Below, piece after piece: positions 4,013 to 11,489 of a stretch of 11,489 bases of DNA (positions within the stretch are counted from its first letter, which is position 1; each line of letters begins with the position of its first letter). Source of the DNA: a bacterium (GTDB lineage: Bacteria > Actinomycetota > Acidimicrobiia > UBA5794 > ZC4RG35); contig JAPPKR010000287.1 of the NCBI GenBank assembly GCA_028819835.1, positions 1-11,489 on the forward strand. Direction: 5' to 3'. Under the pieces are notes generated by a model, which made no database searches, was not told the DNA's origin, and was given only the letters and a program-made list of their open reading frames with translations. The translations under genes were made by a program, and so were the position numbers.

Positions 4013-4876
4013 CTAGGCGGGAGTCCCGAAGAACTCCGACGCAATCTGTTCGGCCGTCTCGTACTGTTCGGGACGAGGGTGGGTGAGGGTGAACTCGTTC
4101 GCCCCCGCCTCTGCGTACCGCCCCACCACCTCGGTAAAGGCGCCGAGGCTCGACCAGATGTCCGGCAGGCCCTGGGGGGCGGTGGTGAAGGCCTCGAGGT
4201 GGACCGAACGGCTTATCTCGGCGGGACCCCTCCCGATCCTCTCGCACTCGGCGTCCAGGATCCGGTTGCGCTCGGCTATCTCCTCCACCGTCCCGAACGA
4301 GTTCCAGCGGTCCGCAAACCGAGCACAGATCCCCAGCATCCGGGGACCGTGGGCGGCCACCGTGAACGGCGGACGGGGCCGCTGCACGGGCCGGGGACGG
4401 AGCCGGGCCCCCGACAACCGGTAATGCCGGCCCTCATGGGAGACCGTGTCCCCCCGTAGCAGGAGGTCGATGATCTCCATCGCCTCGGAGAACCGGTCCA
4501 CCCGCACCCCCGGCTCGAAGAGGGGAATCCCGAACCGGCGGTGCTCCTCCTCGAACCACCCACAGCCGATTCCCAGTTCCAAGCGGCCCCCGGAGATGTG
4601 ATCGACGGTGATGGCCTGCTGGGCCAGGAGCGCCGGATGACGGAGGACGTTGCTGCTCACCAGCGCTCCCACCCGAATCCGGGAGGTCTCGGAGGCCATG
4701 GCGGCCAGGAGGGTCCATCCCTCGAAAAGGGGGGCGTTCGGGTCCAGGGAGCGGAGGAGATGGTCGCAGTGCCAGATGCTGTCGAACCCCAACTGCTCGA
4801 AGTACCGCCACTTCTTCACCAGAACCGGATAGGGATCAGACTGGACCACGGTGACGCCGAACTTCAGTCCTTCCAT
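4013..4876 (-). CDS. LLM-class F420-dependent oxidoreductase, array copy 6 (last)
   Basis: This 287-residue protein is a TIM-barrel member of the bacterial luciferase-like family and resembles the Rv1855c-type F420 group. Visible signatures are SIWHCDHLL (33-41), the LVSSN strand-3 end (72-76, where this superfamily usually has a non-prolyl cis peptide that holds the deazaflavin), RHPALLAQ, and GIGCGWFEEEH (102-112). F420-dependent hydride transfer is inferred from the family and the substrate is unknown. A TTG at 4885 opens a longer frame, but the ATG at 4876 aligns with the starts of the paralogs (MEGLKFGVT against VKAVTFGLT) and is preferred. It shares a 47-bp identical block with copy 5 (4593-4639 and 5519-5565). 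The C-terminal HPRPEQYETAEQIASEFFG differs from the DQPxPxQ of most other copies. It converges with the DUF454 gene. Confidence 0.88.
   Translation of the reverse strand: MEGLKFGVTVVQSDPYPVLVKKWRYFEQLGFDSIWHCDHLLRSLDPNAPLFEGWTLLAAMASETSRIRVGALVSSNVLRHPALLAQQAITVDHISGGRLELGIGCGWFEEEHRRFGIPLFEPGVRVDRFSEAMEIIDLLLRGDTVSHEGRHYRLSGARLRPRPVQRPRPPFTVAAHGPRMLGICARFADRWNSFGTVEEIAERNRILDAECERIGRGPAEISRSVHLEAFTTAPQGLPDIWSSLGAFTEVVGRYAEAGANEFTLTHPRPEQYETAEQIASEFFGTPA
4593..4639. repeat. 47-bp block identical to 5519-5565 (array copies 6 and 5)
   Basis: Every base, including third codon positions, is identical to 5519-5565 in the neighbouring paralog. The block encodes the HPALLAQQAITVDHIS region. Silent positions are unchanged while flanking segments differ, which suggests recent duplication or gene conversion rather than protein constraint alone. 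Confidence 0.8.
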
Positions 4877-4903
4877 CAATCCCAAGACTCCGATCCGGTC
4901 AAC

Positions 4904-4919
4904 CCGGGCGGCCGCCCGG
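4904..4919. repeat. 16-bp perfect GC palindrome between array copies 5 and 6
   Basis: CCGGGCGGCCGCCCGG is a perfect palindrome in the 62-bp gap after the stop of copy 5 and before the start of copy 6. In RNA it could form a hairpin with a small loop. There is no T-run on the minus strand downstream, so it is not a standard intrinsic terminator. It might cause pausing or partial attenuation, or protect mRNA ends. Confidence 0.5.
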
Positions 4920-4938
4920 CGTATCGGGCGGTCCTACT

Positions 4939-5802
4939 TCAAACACTGTGCCCGATGGCCTCTGTGAGGATGGCGTCGGCCGTGGCCTGCTGGCCGGGGC
5001 GGGGCTGGTTGATGACGAACTCGCCCATCCCTGCTTCCGTGTACCTGCCCACCACCTCGGAGAAGACGCCGGCACTCGTCCACACGTCCGGCAATCCCCG
5101 TGCGGCTGGGTCGGCGGCGTTCATGAAAACCGAGCGGATGATCCCGGCGGGGTCCCTCCCGATCCTCTCGCACTCTTCGTCGAGGATGCGGTTTCGCTCG
5201 GCCATATCTTCGGGCGAGCCAATGGAGTTCCACCGGTCGGCGTAGCGGGCACAGATGCGGAGCATCCGGGGACGGTGGGCGGCCAGGGTGAGCGGCGGGC
5301 GGGGCAACTGGACCGGATAGGGGCGAAGCTTGGCCTCCGACAACTGGTAGTGCTCGCCTTCGTAGGTGACGGTCTCTCCCCGCAGCAGGCGGTCGATGAT
5401 CTCGATCGCCTCGGAGAACCGGTCCACCCGCACCCCGGGCTCCAGCAGAGGTATCCGGAACCGGCGGTGCTCCTCCTCAAACCATCCACATCCCACTCCC
5501 ATCTCGAGGCGCCCGCCCGAGATGTGATCGACGGTGATGGCCTGCTGGGCCAGGAGCGCCGGATGGCGGAGGAGGTTGCTGGAGACCAGCGCCCCCATCC
5601 GGATCCGGGAGGTCTCGGAGGCCAGGGCGGCCAGGGTGGTCCAACCCTCGAACATGGGAGCGGTGGGATCGGTGGGACGGAGGAAGTGGTCGGGATTCCA
5701 GATGGTCTCGATCCCCAACTCCTCGTAATGGCGCCACTTCCGCACCAACACCGGGTACGGGTCGCCCTGGGCGAGGAATATCCCGAACCGGGGCGCGGTC
5801 AT
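4939..5802 (-). CDS. LLM-class F420-dependent oxidoreductase, array copy 5
   Basis: The product is 287 residues long and full-length. It carries the array signatures GALVSSNLLRHPALLAQ and GVGCGWFEEEH, but is distinctive at the barrel mouth: TIWNPDHFL replaces the IWHCDH of copies 3, 4 and 6, removing the Cys. The C-terminal segment NQPRPGQQATADAILTEAIG is also the most divergent of the six. Either change could alter substrate choice while cofactor-binding parts stay the same. The ATG at 5802 has the best ribosome binding site of the array, GGAGGAGG seven bases upstream, so translation may be strong and independent. A 100-bp gap with a 7-bp hairpin separates it from copy 4. An oxidoreductase using F420 is the likely role, with the substrate unknown. 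Confidence 0.88.
   Translation of the reverse strand: MTAPRFGIFLAQGDPYPVLVRKWRHYEELGIETIWNPDHFLRPTDPTAPMFEGWTTLAALASETSRIRMGALVSSNLLRHPALLAQQAITVDHISGGRLEMGVGCGWFEEEHRRFRIPLLEPGVRVDRFSEAIEIIDRLLRGETVTYEGEHYQLSEAKLRPYPVQLPRPPLTLAAHRPRMLRICARYADRWNSIGSPEDMAERNRILDEECERIGRDPAGIIRSVFMNAADPAARGLPDVWTSAGVFSEVVGRYTEAGMGEFVINQPRPGQQATADAILTEAIGHSV
5519..5565. repeat. 47-bp block identical to 4593-4639 (array copies 5 and 6)
   Basis: This is the partner of the block in copy 6, lying at the equivalent place in the coding sequence, with identity at all silent sites. Confidence 0.8.
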
Positions 5803-5875
5803 CGGACAGCCTCCTCCAATGTCGTCACCGGGGTCCTGCGGGGGATGGGGTTCTCACCCGCCACCCGGGCCGCGG

Positions 5876-5895
5876 CGCTCCGGACGGTCGGAGCG
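5876..5895 (-). terminator. Hairpin after array copy 4, possible weak terminator
   Basis: CGCTCCG and CGGAGCG form a perfect 7-bp stem around a 6-base loop, eight bases past the stop codon of copy 4. No T-run follows in the direction of transcription. It is better read as a pause, processing or mRNA-stability element than as a proven terminator. Confidence 0.25.
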
Positions 5896-5902
5896 GGGGC
5901 CC

Positions 5903-6754
5903 TCAGAGGACCTCCGAGGCGATCCGTTCGGCAGTCTGGTACTGCTCGGGTTGGGGTTGGTCGATGATGAACTCCTCCACTCCCGCTTCCCGGTACGTGC
6001 CCGCCACCTCACCGAACGCCTCCACGCTCGACCACGGGTTCGGAAATCCCCCCGCAACCAGTTTGGGGACGGACACCCGCATGGAGCGGAGTATTTCTTT
6101 CGGATCCCTCCCGATCTTCTCACATGCCTCGTCGAGGAGCAGGTTCCGCTCGGCCATCTCCTCGGGCGTGCCGCTGGAGTTCCACCGGTCGGCATAGCGG
6201 GCGCAGATGCGGATCATCCGGGGCTGGTGGGCAGCCAGGGTGAGGGGCGGGCGCGGCCACTGGACCGGGTAGGGGCGAAGCTTGGCCTCCGACAATCGGT
6301 AGTGCTCGCCATCGTAGGAGACCGTCTCCCCCCGGAGGAGGGGATCGATGATCTCCAGGGCCTCGGAGAAGCGGTCCACCCTCGGCCCGGGCTCGAAGAG
6401 GGGGATCCCGAACCGTTCGTGCTCCTCCTCGTACCACCCGCAGCCGACCCCCACCTCCACGCGTCCCTGCGACACATGGTCGACGGTGATTGCCTCCTGG
6501 GCCAGGAGGGCGGGATGCCGGAGCACATTGCTGCTCACCAGCACCCCCAGGCGGATCCGGGTGGTCTCGGCCGCCAGGGCGGACAGGACGGTCCATCCCT
6601 CGTATAGGGGAACGGTCGAATCGCCGGTGAACAGCAAATGGTCACAGTGCCAGACGCTCTCGAACCCCAACTCCTCGAAGTACCGCCACTTTCGCACCAA
6701 CACCGGGTAGGGCTCGTACTGCATGGCGGAAATCCCGACTCTGAAGCCCTTCAT
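5903..6754 (-). CDS. LLM-class F420-dependent oxidoreductase, array copy 4
   Basis: The 283-residue protein (MKGFRVGISAMQYEPYPVL) is the shortest copy. It stops directly after ASEVL, without the Gly/Pro tail of the others. It has SVWHCDHLL, LVSSNVLRHPALLAQ and GVGCGWYEEEH, so the barrel and cofactor region are complete. A GTG immediately precedes the ATG in frame. GGAGG on the coding strand lies seven bases before the GTG and ten before the ATG. I chose the ATG because it matches the MKGF start of copy 2, whose leader is also similar (GAGGTGATGG against GAGGTAATGG). That suggests the duplicated unit included the ribosome binding site. The gene follows copy 3 by about 22 bp. A 50-bp block (6375-6424) is identical to copy 3. 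Chemistry is inferred from the family and the substrate is unknown. Confidence 0.87.
   Translation of the reverse strand: MKGFRVGISAMQYEPYPVLVRKWRYFEELGFESVWHCDHLLFTGDSTVPLYEGWTVLSALAAETTRIRLGVLVSSNVLRHPALLAQEAITVDHVSQGRVEVGVGCGWYEEEHERFGIPLFEPGPRVDRFSEALEIIDPLLRGETVSYDGEHYRLSEAKLRPYPVQWPRPPLTLAAHQPRMIRICARYADRWNSSGTPEEMAERNLLLDEACEKIGRDPKEILRSMRVSVPKLVAGGFPNPWSSVEAFGEVAGTYREAGVEEFIIDQPQPEQYQTAERIASEVL
6375..6424. repeat. 50-bp block identical to 7270-7319 (array copies 4 and 3)
   Basis: This stretch, coding the EHERFGIPLFEPGPRVD region, is identical base for base in the two neighbouring genes. Synonymous positions are preserved, which points to recent duplication or conversion between neighbours. 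Confidence 0.8.
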
Positions 6755-6776
6755 CACTCCATTACCTCCACTCTCT

Positions 6777-7649
6777 TCATGGACGCCTCTGACTCGGCCC
6801 GAAGAACCGGGAAGCGATCCGCTCGACTGTCTTGTACTGGTCGGGGCGGGGCTGGTCCATGATGATCTCGTCCGCTCCGGCCTCTGTGAGTTTGCCCATG
6901 ACCTCCGAGAATGCGCCGGGGCTCGACCAGAGGTCGGGCAGGCCCCGGCAGGTCGGGTTGGAGGGTCCCGCCCGGAAGGATCGAATGACCTCTCGGGGGT
7001 CCCGGCCTAACCTCTCGCACTCGGCGTCGAGGAACCGGCTCCGCTCGCCCATCTCCTCCAGGGTCCCCGACGAGGTCCACCGGTCCGCAAAGCGTGCGGC
7101 GATCCTCATCATGCGGGGCTGGTGGGCGGCGAGGGTGAAGGGCGGGCGGGGCGACTGCACGGGACGGGGCCGGAGCCGGGCCTCCGACAACTGGTAGTGC
7201 CGGCCCTCATAGGAGACGGTCTCCCCGCGCATGAGCGGGTCGATGATCTCCATCGCCTCGGAGAAGCGATCCACCCTCGGCCCGGGCTCGAAGAGGGGGA
7301 TCCCGAACCGTTCGTGCTCTTCCTCGAACCACCCGCAGCCGATGCCGAACTCGAGCCGGCCTTCCGAGACGTGATCGACGGTGATGGCCTCCTGGGCCAG
7401 GAGAGCCGGATGTCGGAGCACATTGCTGGTCACCAGCGTCCCCATCCGGATCCGGGAGGTCTCGGCGGCGATGGCGGCCAGGAGGGTCCACCCTTCGAAG
7501 AGGGGATAGGTGGGATTGTTGGGACGCAGGAGGTGATCGCAGTGCCAGATGCTGTCGAACCCCAGTTCGTCGAAGTACCGCCACTTCTTCACCAGCACCC
7601 CATAGGGGTCGGACGGAGTCACGGTGAGCCCAAACGTGACGGCTTTCAC
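6777..7649 (-). CDS. LLM-class F420-dependent oxidoreductase, array copy 3
   Basis: The 290-residue protein starts VKAVTFGLTV at a GTG, with GGGAG seven bases upstream on the coding strand. An upstream ATG at 7772 would give 331 residues, but it would overlap the end of copy 2 and add a low-complexity Ser/Pro/Arg stretch that no paralog has. The motifs are SIWHCDHLL, LVTSNVLRHPALLAQ (Thr in place of Ser just before Asn) and GIGCGWFEEEH. Two changes stand out. The usual DRWNS is DRWTS, and the C-terminal region NPTCRGLPD is unlike the others. These sit in the variable part facing the substrate or the subunit interface, so specificity may differ. It ends PSQRRP just before copy 4. F420-linked redox chemistry is inferred only. 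Confidence 0.87.
   Translation of the reverse strand: MKAVTFGLTVTPSDPYGVLVKKWRYFDELGFDSIWHCDHLLRPNNPTYPLFEGWTLLAAIAAETSRIRMGTLVTSNVLRHPALLAQEAITVDHVSEGRLEFGIGCGWFEEEHERFGIPLFEPGPRVDRFSEAMEIIDPLMRGETVSYEGRHYQLSEARLRPRPVQSPRPPFTLAAHQPRMMRIAARFADRWTSSGTLEEMGERSRFLDAECERLGRDPREVIRSFRAGPSNPTCRGLPDLWSSPGAFSEVMGKLTEAGADEIIMDQPRPDQYKTVERIASRFFGPSQRRP
7270..7319. repeat. 50-bp block identical to 6375-6424 (array copies 3 and 4)
   Basis: This is the partner of the block in copy 4. A second stretch of copy 3 (7192-7232) is identical over 41 bp to copy 2 (8105-8145), so copy 3 shares different exact blocks with each neighbour. Confidence 0.8.
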
Positions 7650-7698
7650 CCGTGCGCTCCCGTTCTCCTCGCGTTCCGGCCCGCCGGGCGGTCCCGCA

Positions 7699-8562
7699 TC
7701 AACGGCTCGGCTCGATGACCTGGGAGGCGATCCGCTCGACGGTCTTGTACTGCTCGGGCCGGGGTTCGACAAAGAGGAACTCGTTCACCCCCGCCTCGGC
7801 GTAGCGCCCCACCACCTCTGTGAAGGCGTCGGAGCTCGACCACATGTCGGGCAGGCCCTGGGGCCCCAGGGTGGAGTTCCCTCCCAGGTAGGAACGGACT
7901 ATCTCCGAAGGGTCCCTCCCGATCCTCCGGCAGGCCTCGTCGACCTGGAGATTGCGTTTGGTGAGTTCCTCCACCGTCCCGGTGGAATTCCAGGAGTCGG
8001 CGTAGCGGGCGCAGATCCCGAGCATGCGAGGCTTGTGGCCGGCCAGCATGAACGGCGGGCGGGGCGACTGCAGGGGTCGGGGGCGGAGCCGGGCCTCGCT
8101 CAGTTGGTAGTGCCGGCCCTCATAGGAGACGGTCTCCCCGCGCATCAGGGGGTCGATTATCTCCATGGCCTCTTCGAAGCGGTCGACCCGCTCCTTGGGT
8201 TCGTACAGGGGGATGTTGAACCACTCGTGCTCCAACTCGTACCACCCCGCGCCCACCCCGAAGTCCAACCGCCCCTCGGAGACGTGATCGAGGGTGATGG
8301 CCTGCTGGGCCAGGAGGGCGGGGTGGCGGAAGGTGTTGCTGGAGACCAGCACCCCCACCCTGATCCGCGAGGTCTCCGCCGCCAGTGCGGCCAGCACGGT
8401 CCAACCCTCGAAGAACGGCTTGTCGGGATGGCCGGGATTGTGAAAGTGGTCGCAGGGCCAGATGCTGTCGAACCCCAGTTCCTCGAAGTACCGCCAGTTG
8501 TCCAGCAGCACCTGATACGGCTTCCACTGGGGGGTGTAAACACCGAACCTGAATCCCTTCAC
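7699..8562 (-). CDS. LLM-class F420-dependent oxidoreductase, array copy 2
   Basis: The product has 287 residues starting VKGFRFGVYTPQWKPY at a GTG (8562). GAGGTG lies eight bases upstream on the coding strand. Like copy 1 it has SSNTFRHPALLAQ and an Ala for Cys in GVGAGWYELEH, separating copies 1-2 from copies 3-6. The barrel-mouth motif is SIWPCDHFH, the sequence before EGWT is NPGHPDKPFF, and DSWNS replaces DRWNS. It is the most divergent copy around the expected pocket. The end, TVERIASQVIEPSR, matches copy 1. The 111-bp gap before it is the longest in the array. On the minus strand that gap contains the only AT-rich patch, TATGTT at 8611-8616, a possible internal -10. The reaction is inferred from the family and the substrate is unknown. 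Confidence 0.87.
   Translation of the reverse strand: MKGFRFGVYTPQWKPYQVLLDNWRYFEELGFDSIWPCDHFHNPGHPDKPFFEGWTVLAALAAETSRIRVGVLVSSNTFRHPALLAQQAITLDHVSEGRLDFGVGAGWYELEHEWFNIPLYEPKERVDRFEEAMEIIDPLMRGETVSYEGRHYQLSEARLRPRPLQSPRPPFMLAGHKPRMLGICARYADSWNSTGTVEELTKRNLQVDEACRRIGRDPSEIVRSYLGGNSTLGPQGLPDMWSSSDAFTEVVGRYAEAGVNEFLFVEPRPEQYKTVERIASQVIEPSR
8105..8145. repeat. 41-bp block identical to 7192-7232 (array copies 2 and 3)
   Basis: This stretch codes the MRGETVSYEGRHYQ region and matches its neighbour at every base, although the genes differ clearly on either side. Confidence 0.75.
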
Positions 8563-8673
8563 AACGCCATCACCTCGACTCTCATCAGCAACCGACTGGT
8601 CCGATGCCCAAACATAACACGGGCAGACGCTCCCGACACCCCCGACGGGGGGTAGCCATCAACGCCGGTTGAG
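8563..8673 (-). promoter_or_regulatory. Gap between array copies 1 and 2, possible internal promoter
   Basis: On the minus strand the gap starts with a short hairpin, CCCCC/GGGGG (8639-8651), after the copy 1 stop. It is followed by GTGTTATGTTTGG, where TATGTT (8611-8616) fits TAnnnT and lies about 50 bp before the copy 2 start. No clear -35 element is seen. It may be a weak internal promoter or just a spacer. Confidence 0.2.
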
Positions 8674-9543
8674 TCAACGACCCGGCTCGATCACCTCAGA
8701 GACGATCCGCTCGGCCGTCTTGAACTGCTCGGGGCGGGGCTGGTCCATGATGAACTCGTTCACCCCCGCCTCGGCGTAGCGCCCCACCACTTCACTGAAC
8801 GCGTCGGGGCTCGACCAGGCGTCGGGCAGGCCCTGGGCGGCCATGTTGGACGCCCACCCGTAGAAGGAGCGGATTATCTCGGCCGGGTCCCTCCCGATCC
8901 GCTCGCAGGCCTCGTCGAGGAGGCGGTTGCGCTCGGCCATCTCCTCCACCGTCCCGAAGGAGTTCCACCGGTCGGCATAGCGGGCGCAGATGGCCAGCAT
9001 GCGGGGGCGGTGGGCGCCCAGGGTGAGCGGCGGGCGGGGAGACTGGACCGGACGCGGGCGGAGCCGGGCGCCCCGGAGTTGGTAGTACTCACCGTCGAAG
9101 GTGACTTCCTGTCCGCGGAGGAGGGAGTCGATGATCTCCACGGCTTCCGAGAAGCTCCCGACGAGCGTCGGCGGGTCGCCGAAGGGGATCCCGAACCGCT
9201 CGTGCTCCTCCACGAACCATCCGGCGCCGAAGCCGAGTTCCAGGCGGCCCTCCGAGATGTGGTCGATGGTGAGGGCCTCCTGGGCCAGCAGGGCCGGGTG
9301 GCGGAAGGTGTTGCTGCCCACCAGCACCCCCACCCTGATCCGGGAGGTCTCGGCGGCCAGGGCGGCCAGGAGGGTCCACCCCTCGAAGTAGGGATCAGAG
9401 GTGTTGGAGGGCCGGAGGAAGTGGTCGCAGTCCCAGATGCTGTCGAAGCCCAGTTCCTCGAAATACCGCCACCGCTCCGCCATGACCGGATAGGGCTCGG
9501 CCTGATCGGTGCAGATCCCATAGAGGATGTTTCCCTCCCCCAT
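8674..9543 (-). CDS. LLM-class F420-dependent oxidoreductase, array copy 1 (first)
   Basis: The 289-residue protein is the first oxidoreductase transcribed. It has SIWDCDHFL, LVGSNTFRHPALLAQ (Gly instead of Ser at the strand-3 end, a place that contacts the cofactor in this superfamily) and GFGAGWFVEEH. Where the other copies have EPxxRVDRFSEA it reads DPPTLVGSFSEA, losing the Arg-Val-Asp. It ends TAERIVSEVIEPGR. The ATG at 9543 has only a weak GGTGA close upstream. No better start exists, and the position matches the paralogs with two or three extra residues. The DUF378 gene lies 50 bp upstream in the same direction, so the two are probably co-transcribed. The substrate is unknown and F420 use is inferred from the family. 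Confidence 0.87.
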   Translation of the reverse strand: MGEGNILYGICTDQAEPYPVMAERWRYFEELGFDSIWDCDHFLRPSNTSDPYFEGWTLLAALAAETSRIRVGVLVGSNTFRHPALLAQEALTIDHISEGRLELGFGAGWFVEEHERFGIPFGDPPTLVGSFSEAVEIIDSLLRGQEVTFDGEYYQLRGARLRPRPVQSPRPPLTLGAHRPRMLAICARYADRWNSFGTVEEMAERNRLLDEACERIGRDPAEIIRSFYGWASNMAAQGLPDAWSSPDAFSEVVGRYAEAGVNEFIMDQPRPEQFKTAERIVSEVIEPGR

Positions 9544-9952: not shown

Positions 9953-11489
9953 ATGCCGGACCAGCCCTCCGTCGCCAACCGCCCACCTCGGACCCCGATC
10001 CTGTTCGGCGTCTCCGGTCCCCCGCCGCCCGACGAAGGCGAGGACGGGGCGTTCCTGGACGACCTGGCTTCCCGGGGCGTCCGGTCCTATGAACTCTCCT
10101 TCGTGAAAGGGTTCCCCTGGAAGGAGACCCGGTGCGCCCGGTTCGGCGCCGAGGCGGCGGCGAGGGGCTTCCGGCTCTCGGTCCACGCTCCGTACTTCGC
10201 GGTGCTGACCACCGAGGAGCCCGACAAGTCCCGGATGTGCCTCTCGGCCCTGGAGCACACCATGAAGCTGGGACAGGAACTGGAGGCGCCCGTGGTGGTC
10301 GCCCACTCCGGTCATCTGAAGGGACGGGCTCCCGGGCAGGTGATGGACCTGATCCGGAGCCGCCTGGACGCCCTGGCCCCCAAGGTGGCCGACCTGGGCG
10401 TGGGCCTCGGGCTGGAGACCGCCGGACGCGAGGGGGCCTTCGGGACGCTGGGCGACATCGCCCTCCTGGCCGCGGAGTTCCCCTTCGTCAGGCCGGTGGT
10501 CGACTGGGCGCACCTGCACGCCCTGTCGGGAGGAGGGCTGGTGGACACCGAGCGGTTCAAGACGGTGCTGTCCTTTCTGCGAGACTCATTCCCGGCCTGG
10601 ATGCTGTCTCCCCTCCACACCCAGTTCACCGACAACCGGTTCGGACCCTCAGGCGAGATCAGTCACGTTCGGTACGGCGAGGGGACGCTTCGCGTGGGGC
10701 CCCTGGTGGAGGCTGCGTACGAGTCGGGCGTTTCGATGGTGGTGATCTCCGAGGCCCGGGAGTGGGAGAGCCACGTCGCCATCGGCCGGGAGGTGGCGAC
10801 CACGGTCCGCCGCCTGGAGCAGGTCCGGGAGAGGGGCGGCCCCAGCGCCGCCTCGGGGGCGGTGTCCTTTCCCGACCCGGTGCCGGTGGCCCCCACCGAG
10901 GACCGGCACCGGCCCCTGAAGGCCTCCCTCCCCCTTCGCCTCTCCAACCTGGCCAAGCCCTTCTTCCCCGAGGGCTACACCAAGGGCGACCTGATCAGCT
11001 ACTACGCCTCGGTGGCGGGGACCCTTCTCCCCCACCTCCGGGACCGGCCCCTGTCCATGTCCCGATATCCCGACGGGATCGAGGGGCCGTCCTTCTATGA
11101 GAAGCGGGCTCCGGGGCACCAGCCCCAGTGGATGAGAAAGCTCCCGGTGGACTCCCACTCCATGGGCGGGGAGATCGAGTTTCTCTGCGCGGACCATCCC
11201 GAGTCGCTGATGTGGTTCGCCAACATGGGCTGTGTGGAGACCCACCCCTTCCACTCCCGCCATCCCGACCTCGACCATCCCGACTGGGCGGTGTTCGACT
11301 TCGACCCGGCCCCCGGCGCGTCGTGGTCGCAGGTGGTGGCGGGCGCCCGGCTGTGCGGGATGGCGCTGGAGCGGCTCGGGCTGCGCTCCTACCCCAAGCT
11401 GTCGGGAAGCCGCGGCATGCACGTGTACGTGCCGCTCCGGCCGGTGCACGGCTACGGGAGGGTGCGGAGGTTCGTGGGGGCGGTGGCCC
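9953..11489 (+). CDS. Endonuclease IV-like TIM barrel fused to LigD-type primase-polymerase (partial, first 512 aa)
   Basis: The gene is open at the right edge. Residues about 15-290 form an endonuclease IV/AP_endonuc_2-like TIM barrel. The metal-site pattern is H78 (SVHAPYF), H118 (VVAHSGH), E155 (GLETAG), D184 and H187 (VDWAHLH), H222 (SPLHTQ), H238 and E267 (SEARE). Its spacing follows the E. coli Nfo ligands as I recall them, except that Ile236 stands where Nfo has an Asp. A Pro/Ala-rich linker follows (about 295-325). From about 329 the sequence is a LigD polymerase domain: LRLSNLAKPFFPEGYTKGDL, RPLSMSRYPDGIEGPSFYEK, ETHPFHSR, DHPDWAVFDFDPAPG with catalytic Asp449/Asp451, and KLSGSRGMHVYVPL. 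Such AEP polymerases fill gaps and add ribonucleotides in NHEJ. The third catalytic Asp and any ligase lie beyond the window. The ATG follows AT-rich TTATTAAACGTA without a clear ribosome binding site, so it may be leaderless. Confidence 0.9.
   Translation, partial: MPDQPSVANRPPRTPILFGVSGPPPPDEGEDGAFLDDLASRGVRSYELSFVKGFPWKETRCARFGAEAAARGFRLSVHAPYFAVLTTEEPDKSRMCLSALEHTMKLGQELEAPVVVAHSGHLKGRAPGQVMDLIRSRLDALAPKVADLGVGLGLETAGREGAFGTLGDIALLAAEFPFVRPVVDWAHLHALSGGGLVDTERFKTVLSFLRDSFPAWMLSPLHTQFTDNRFGPSGEISHVRYGEGTLRVGPLVEAAYESGVSMVVISEAREWESHVAIGREVATTVRRLEQVRERGGPSAASGAVSFPDPVPVAPTEDRHRPLKASLPLRLSNLAKPFFPEGYTKGDLISYYASVAGTLLPHLRDRPLSMSRYPDGIEGPSFYEKRAPGHQPQWMRKLPVDSHSMGGEIEFLCADHPESLMWFANMGCVETHPFHSRHPDLDHPDWAVFDFDPAPGASWSQVVAGARLCGMALERLGLRSYPKLSGSRGMHVYVPLRPVHGYGRVRRFVGAVA

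Follow-up and report, generated by a model that had tools for sequence, protein, structure and literature searches.

Two repair systems offer precedents for the protein described here. The mycobacterial base excision repair (BER) set consists of separate proteins, Prim-PolC, endonuclease IV (EndoIV) and LigC, and the accessible portion of PMC5663958 reports that, in vitro, EndoIV is the most useful gap-cleaning enzyme ahead of Prim-PolC and LigC. In Bacillus subtilis, LigD finishes repair after an AP endonuclease, according to the accessible part of PMC4770248. These two precedents, as far as the accessible text goes, indicate that EndoIV suits this polymerase family. Bacterial non-homologous end joining (NHEJ) has been surveyed in PMC7719229, the available part of which classes genomes on the basis of Ku, LIG, POL and PE (phosphoesterase). 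Here we analyse an 11,489-nt stretch of an Acidimicrobiia genome (contig JAPPKR010000287.1, hereafter the window), which encodes a protein combining an EndoIV-like barrel with a LigD-type primase-polymerase (Pol) in one chain. Throughout the text, "the order" is the order of this source genome.

The fusion gene (P0001; 9953..11489, + strand) opens with an ATG at 9953 and runs without a stop codon for 512 codons up to the end of the window, which cuts its 3' end. Pfam recognized AP_endonuc_2 (PF01261) at residues 36-272 (E 2.4e-22; 80.3 bits, cut-off 31.1) and LigD_Prim-Pol (PF21686) at residues 343-512 (E 1.6e-54; 185.6 bits, cut-off 27.4). The nearest genome (G001) carries the whole gene, which encodes 617 aa from the matching ATG and is 97% identical over the 512 window residues; this complete chain terminates just past the polymerase, with no space for a ligase or PE domain. 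An AlphaFold model of the G001 copy (pLDDT 90.9, pTM 0.88) matches EndoIV over residues 14-289, and the EndoIV-like TIM barrel was delimited to residues 14-292 (9992..10828, +). It is followed by a linker (residues 293-326; 10829..10930, +) with AlphaFold block means of 71-92 and a recurrent 'FPdP' motif, and by the primase-polymerase (residues 327-512, incomplete; 10931..11488, +). The unbroken frame, the two domain calls and their boundaries, all of which had been proposed from the DNA letters in the original prediction, were borne out by these results, as was the D449-x-D451 motif discussed below.

A database search with the fusion returned 2171 matches. Among the 120 listed, 118 have a length of 589-679 aa and all 120 contain both PF01261 and PF21686, many of them also the primase model PF01896; no ligase or PE model is present in their precomputed Pfam annotation. 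Nor did Pfam detect a PE domain in the window copy or in two relatives with the reversed domain order (L102 and P0242). The listed relatives are assigned, where a host is given, to Acidimicrobiia, Actinomycetota, bacterium or soil metagenome, and their products are named 'non-homologous end-joining DNA ligase', 'bifunctional ... LigD' or 'TIM barrel protein', and elsewhere deoxyribonuclease IV; these labels mask the two-domain combination. We found no description of the barrel-Pol fusion in the titles and abstract starts of the literature searched, most subscription papers and preprints lying outside it. The accessible portions of PMC5663958, PMC4770248, PMC7719229, PMC10273834, PMC10140301 and PMC8656161 do not describe it either, and 'endonuclease' occurs 0 times in the accessible part of the last, a LigD review.

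The alignment of 32 proteins passes through the same barrel-Pol join, and, out of 148 genomes of the class, 27 gave full-length matches, every one of them among the 36 sampled from one order. Since the same join is present in the 32 aligned proteins and in 27/36 genomes of the order, the fusion is real and not a sequencing error. A denser sample, in which the same 99 genomes of the order were searched for the fusion, Ku, PE, ATP ligase (PF01068) and nfo, raised the count to 76/99. This figure includes copies interrupted at a contig end, by N gaps or by a frameshift (e.g. G160, G162, G171, G180, G181 and G203) as well as G207, in which only the Pol half is visible, at a contig end; genomes with only Pol-type matches (G179 and G195 among them) were counted as negative. 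Over 36 named loci, the hosts are labelled Acidimicrobiia, Acidimicrobiales, Acidimicrobiaceae, Actinobacteria, Actinomycetota, Acidobacteria or just bacterium.

When a barrel profile was run over 396 genomes of the phylum (E <= 1e-15), 19 were positive: six in the order, ten with fusions outside the class (three in f65, two in f69 and five in f72) and three with standalone barrels (f73). The architecture is therefore spread over many genomes of the order and also reaches ten genomes outside the class, where the arrangement is not always the same. Barrel-Pol is the order of domains in the source order, f69 and f72; the reversed Pol-barrel order occurs in f65 and in P0240-P0243, and is confirmed by Pfam for L102 and P0242. 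Two of the three f65 genes are intact (L100 and L102), and in the third (L104, G454:C104) a break in the frame separates the domains. In the Pol tree, polymerases of the Pol-barrel type make up a single clade (100/99), and the three fused groups leave from an open fork; in the barrel tree, the Pol-barrel barrels go with the standalone barrels (86/97). Both separate fusions and a single fusion followed by a swap would fit these trees. The existence of both domain orders favours a working partnership between barrel and polymerase. A phage origin was also considered and is unsupported, given that no relative was confirmed among viral contigs with two peptide patterns and that no PHROG was assigned; structure matches in BFVD were to giant-virus and other AP or UV endonucleases, assorted TIM barrels and a few primases.

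The fusion tends to co-occur with Ku. Among the 99 genomes of the order, 67 have both, 9 only the fusion, 8 only Ku and 15 neither. The corresponding values for the 74 good genomes (>=90% complete, <=5% contaminated) are 52/4/5/13 (Fisher p 1.4e-7), and 26/3/3/8 after collapsing by genus (p 2.7e-4). Furthermore, those of the 74 that have Ku, 57 in all, divide into 52 with the fusion and without a three-domain LigD, and five with this LigD and without the fusion; none has both and none lacks both. In these five (G099, G106, G175, G187 and G202), PE, ligase and Pol lie in one frame of 833-897 aa beside Ku. At 56-77% completeness, three other Ku-positive genomes without either protein (G157, G161 and G165) do not belong to the good set. 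All ten (10/10) fusion genomes outside the class possess Ku as well as an ATP ligase, and at least nine fusion-positive genomes of the order have an ATP-ligase match <=2.5 kb from Ku (G043, G110, G134, G149, G158, G188, G189, G194 and G204). The one that was typed, in G110, scores 233.5 against an NHEJ_ligase_lig cut-off of 227.75. At that locus (L115:3624-6560), Ku and the NHEJ-type ligase adjoin genes that by eye resemble GatB/YqeY and a glycerophosphodiester phosphodiesterase; in G001, there is no ligase between Ku and the YqeY-like gene. Ku co-occurrence and the mutual exclusion with the three-domain LigD support the link to break repair that had been suggested for this protein.

The fused polymerase shares with LigD proteins (PE-Lig-Pol or Lig-Pol) the Prim-Pol family and the catalytic and 5'-phosphate residues, it occurs with Ku (67/76 in the order), and it is present where the three-domain LigD is not among the good Ku-positive genomes; it differs from them in that its chain has no ligase and no PE, carries an EndoIV-like barrel instead, and is not encoded beside Ku. 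Residues N332, K335, K344, H431, D449, D451, R532 and D539 are invariant in the 32 aligned sequences. Asn332, Lys335 and Lys344 correspond to N20, K23 and K35 of the 5'-phosphate pocket of Prim-PolC, as mapped from the accessible part of PMC5663958. The ligD_pol model TIGR02778 scored 169.6 bits against a cut-off of 214.7 on the window copy, which is incomplete (512 aa). Among solved structures, Prim-PolC and the Methanocella NHEJ polymerase come closest. In the Pol tree, which includes 13 fused proteins of the order (12 from the 120 listed relatives and one other), all 21 fused polymerases fall outside the Prim-PolC clade (100/100) and group, with moderate support (82/90), with the Ku-adjacent polymerases of the class; the Prim-PolC clade contains the second polymerase of the six genomes of the order sampled. 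The Loop 3 extension of Prim-PolC (313-333) is absent from the fused chain, which ends at residue 617, the equivalent of Prim-PolC residue 309. The fusion would combine the pair of activities of the mycobacterial set, whose parts are separate proteins (PMC5663958), and it would do so with a polymerase that is related to Prim-PolC but lies outside its clade and stops before Loop 3. Genomes G195 (L120:3439-4446; 335 aa) and G179 (C143) have a Pol-type match without the barrel, 43-44% identical to the fused Pol, and lack Ku; the G195 protein still bears the linker motif of the fusion. From the sequences, it looks as though the barrel was lost together with NHEJ.

Regarding the barrel, the codons of His78 (10184-10186) and His118 (10304-10306), on the + strand as are those that follow, align with the first two His ligands of Nfo, and those of Glu155 (10415-10417), Asp184 (10502-10504) and His187 (10511-10513) with its Glu, Asp and His ligands; these five residues are invariant in the 32 sequences. 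Further along are His222 (10616-10618), Glu235 (10655-10657), His238 (10664-10666) and Glu267 (10751-10753). The three-metal site of EndoIV has nine ligands. H78, H118, E155, D184, H187, E235, H238 and E267 are invariant in 36 sequences, and six ligands agree in both alignment methods (H78, H118, E155, D184, H187 and H238). The equivalent of Nfo Asp229 is ambiguous, being E235 by MAFFT and I236 by hhalign, and E267 is aligned only through MJ1311. Residue 222, a His here, also aligns with a ligand but is Gln in 66/141 proteins with both motifs (the 141 that fitted the pattern; the two-domain protein P0245 did not fit and was left out).

The barrel resembles Nfo in profile-profile comparison (E 7e-9), and shares with it the TIM-barrel fold and, by alignment, most metal ligands. 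However, the curated nfo model TIGR00587 gave the 512-aa window copy 16 bits against a cut-off of 129.65, and three fused copies of the order reported at E <= 1e-10 reached 41-44 bits. A separate nfo-like gene is present at that same threshold in 89/99 genomes of the order, and in 18 of these it exceeds the curated cut-off; the one in L125 matches Mycobacterium tuberculosis EndoIV with E 1.2e-86. A 100/100 branch of the barrel tree separates six of the nfo-like genes from the fusion barrels. Because the cut-off was missed and a separate nfo-like gene coexists with it, the fused barrel is, judged by sequence, an EndoIV-like distant paralogue and not the Nfo orthologue of the cell. On this point, the original prediction had to be corrected. 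The fold itself was rejected as proof of EndoIV identity, since the barrel alone ties with sugar epimerases in structure comparison. Standalone relatives of ~270 aa (P0196-P0239; f73), some labelled deoxyribonuclease IV by a source, have a barrel ~33-38% identical and the same invariant residues; they differ in being unfused and in having Leu/Ile in place of the Tyr-Phe that follows HAP in 128/129 proteins with the Pol motif. No NHEJ gene was recognized by eye among the gene starts within ~10 kb of standalone barrels in three genomes, two of which have Ku elsewhere.

Taken together, these data make it fairly probable that the fusion belongs to a split bacterial NHEJ system, as the arm that heals ends and fills gaps, with a second job in BER as a possibility. 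In the proposed sequence of events, each step and its order being conjectural, Ku, encoded elsewhere, would hold the broken end; the EndoIV-like barrel would strip 3' blocks (3'-phosphate, sugar fragments, perhaps a near-end abasic site) to leave a 3'-OH; the polymerase, anchored to the 5'-phosphate that the partner end presents, would fill in the missing stretch, with ribonucleotides, which its relatives use, as the probable substrate; and a separate ligase would seal. The best reading of the occurrence data is that, in this order, the fusion occupies the place of the single PE-Lig-Pol LigD of other genomes. More tentatively, it may represent an unrecognised NHEJ architecture, in which an EndoIV-like three-metal nuclease is hard-wired to an NHEJ polymerase in both orders, displaces the multi-domain LigD as the end-processing hub and serves both double-strand break and abasic-site repair.

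Several observations weigh against the split-NHEJ interpretation. Kinship was corrected for by genus collapse only, and the exclusion of LigD concerns the three-domain PE-Lig-Pol, two-domain Lig-Pol proteins lying outside the search. The metal site departs from that of Nfo, with one ligand often Gln and one unclear. In the genus of G001, each of five genomes has one PF01068 match, and that of G001 itself is a LigC-type ligase (PRK08224, 420 bits). A PE gene coexists with the fusion in 10/67 fusion- and Ku-positive genomes of the order and in 8/10 fusion genomes outside the class; the earlier proposal that the barrel takes the place of PE thus fits the remaining 57/67 and fails in the others, and strict PE replacement is weakened. 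Ku is not nearby either: the two genes were on different contigs (65 genomes) or >300 kb apart (G162 and G169) in all 67 genomes of the order with both, so that an operon with Ku was seen in none. Nine fusion genomes, four of them of good quality, lack Ku; G039 and G063 (100% and 95% complete) keep the fusion without Ku and without a PF01068 ligase, and their copies retain by eye both active sites, with Gln at 222. This retention indicates that the fusion can persist without NHEJ and points to a use outside it. Lastly, G067 and G079 also carry a standalone NHEJ-type Pol that adjoins a ligase match and lies ~8 kb or less from a second Ku (G067:C7 and G079:C167), another Ku being located elsewhere; the extra polymerases of G079 and G035 group with the Methanocella NHEJ polymerase (98/94), and 33/76 fusion genomes have three or more matches in the fusion search, some of them fragments of one gene. 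The fusion therefore need not be the only NHEJ-type polymerase of these cells.

The strongest competing explanation is that the protein is mainly a BER machine, in which the barrel, acting after a glycosylase, nicks abasic sites or trims 3' ends, the polymerase fills the short gap, and LigC or LigA seals; Ku would be unneeded, and its co-occurrence would reflect a shared lifestyle. The extra Pol near Ku in G067 and G079 makes this explanation slightly stronger and split NHEJ slightly weaker. Nevertheless, the sampled genomes of the order own a separate Prim-PolC, with the fused polymerases placed outside that clade and with the Ku-adjacent ones, and neither the association with Ku nor the exclusion of the three-domain LigD is expected for a BER-only enzyme, so that we consider a mainly BER role unlikely, if still a serious candidate. 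We regard as improbable that the barrel is no longer a nuclease and acts as a DNA-binding or docking platform, or carries out some other xylose-isomerase-like chemistry, leaving the polymerase as the only catalytic half: H78, H118, H187 and H238 are invariant and aligned with EndoIV histidines that sugar epimerases are not known to have, and the Tyr-Phe after HAP distinguishes the fused barrels from their standalone homologues. Finally, an erroneous joining of two genes by sequencing or assembly, to which the two halves ~390 kb apart in G162 and in different frames in G454 could point, is hardly conceivable and was ruled out, since the identical join recurs across relatives and in other lineages too, and in G162, which is scaffolded, N gaps interrupt both halves where they should meet, their separation most likely stemming from the scaffolding.

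With respect to the surroundings of the gene, a small DUF378 gene (PF04070; 9597-9986, - strand) is divergent from the fusion and, as called, overlaps its start; its true start is probably further in. Next to it, six tandem genes for luciferase-like (LLM class) oxidoreductases of ~285-290 aa, each with PF00296, occupy 4013-9543 (- strand). The nearest NCBIfam model is TIGR03560, just under the cut-off for the three scanned, and the array recurs in near relatives. Downstream of the fusion, relatives have a 376-aa gene with a HisA-like and a VOC/glyoxalase domain (L051:9904-11031); a homologue starts <700 b past the fusion in 19 of the 32 loci with >=1300 b of sequence there, and perhaps this repeated neighbourhood is plain synteny.

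Bacterial NHEJ has been described through the three parts of LigD, namely ligase, polymerase and phosphoesterase, and the polymerase is here joined to an end-processing module of another sort. The resulting fusion is present where the three-domain LigD would be in most Ku-positive genomes of the order. Such a compact enzyme lends itself to testing: its single chain would both clean and fill DNA ends, and would physically tie BER to end joining.
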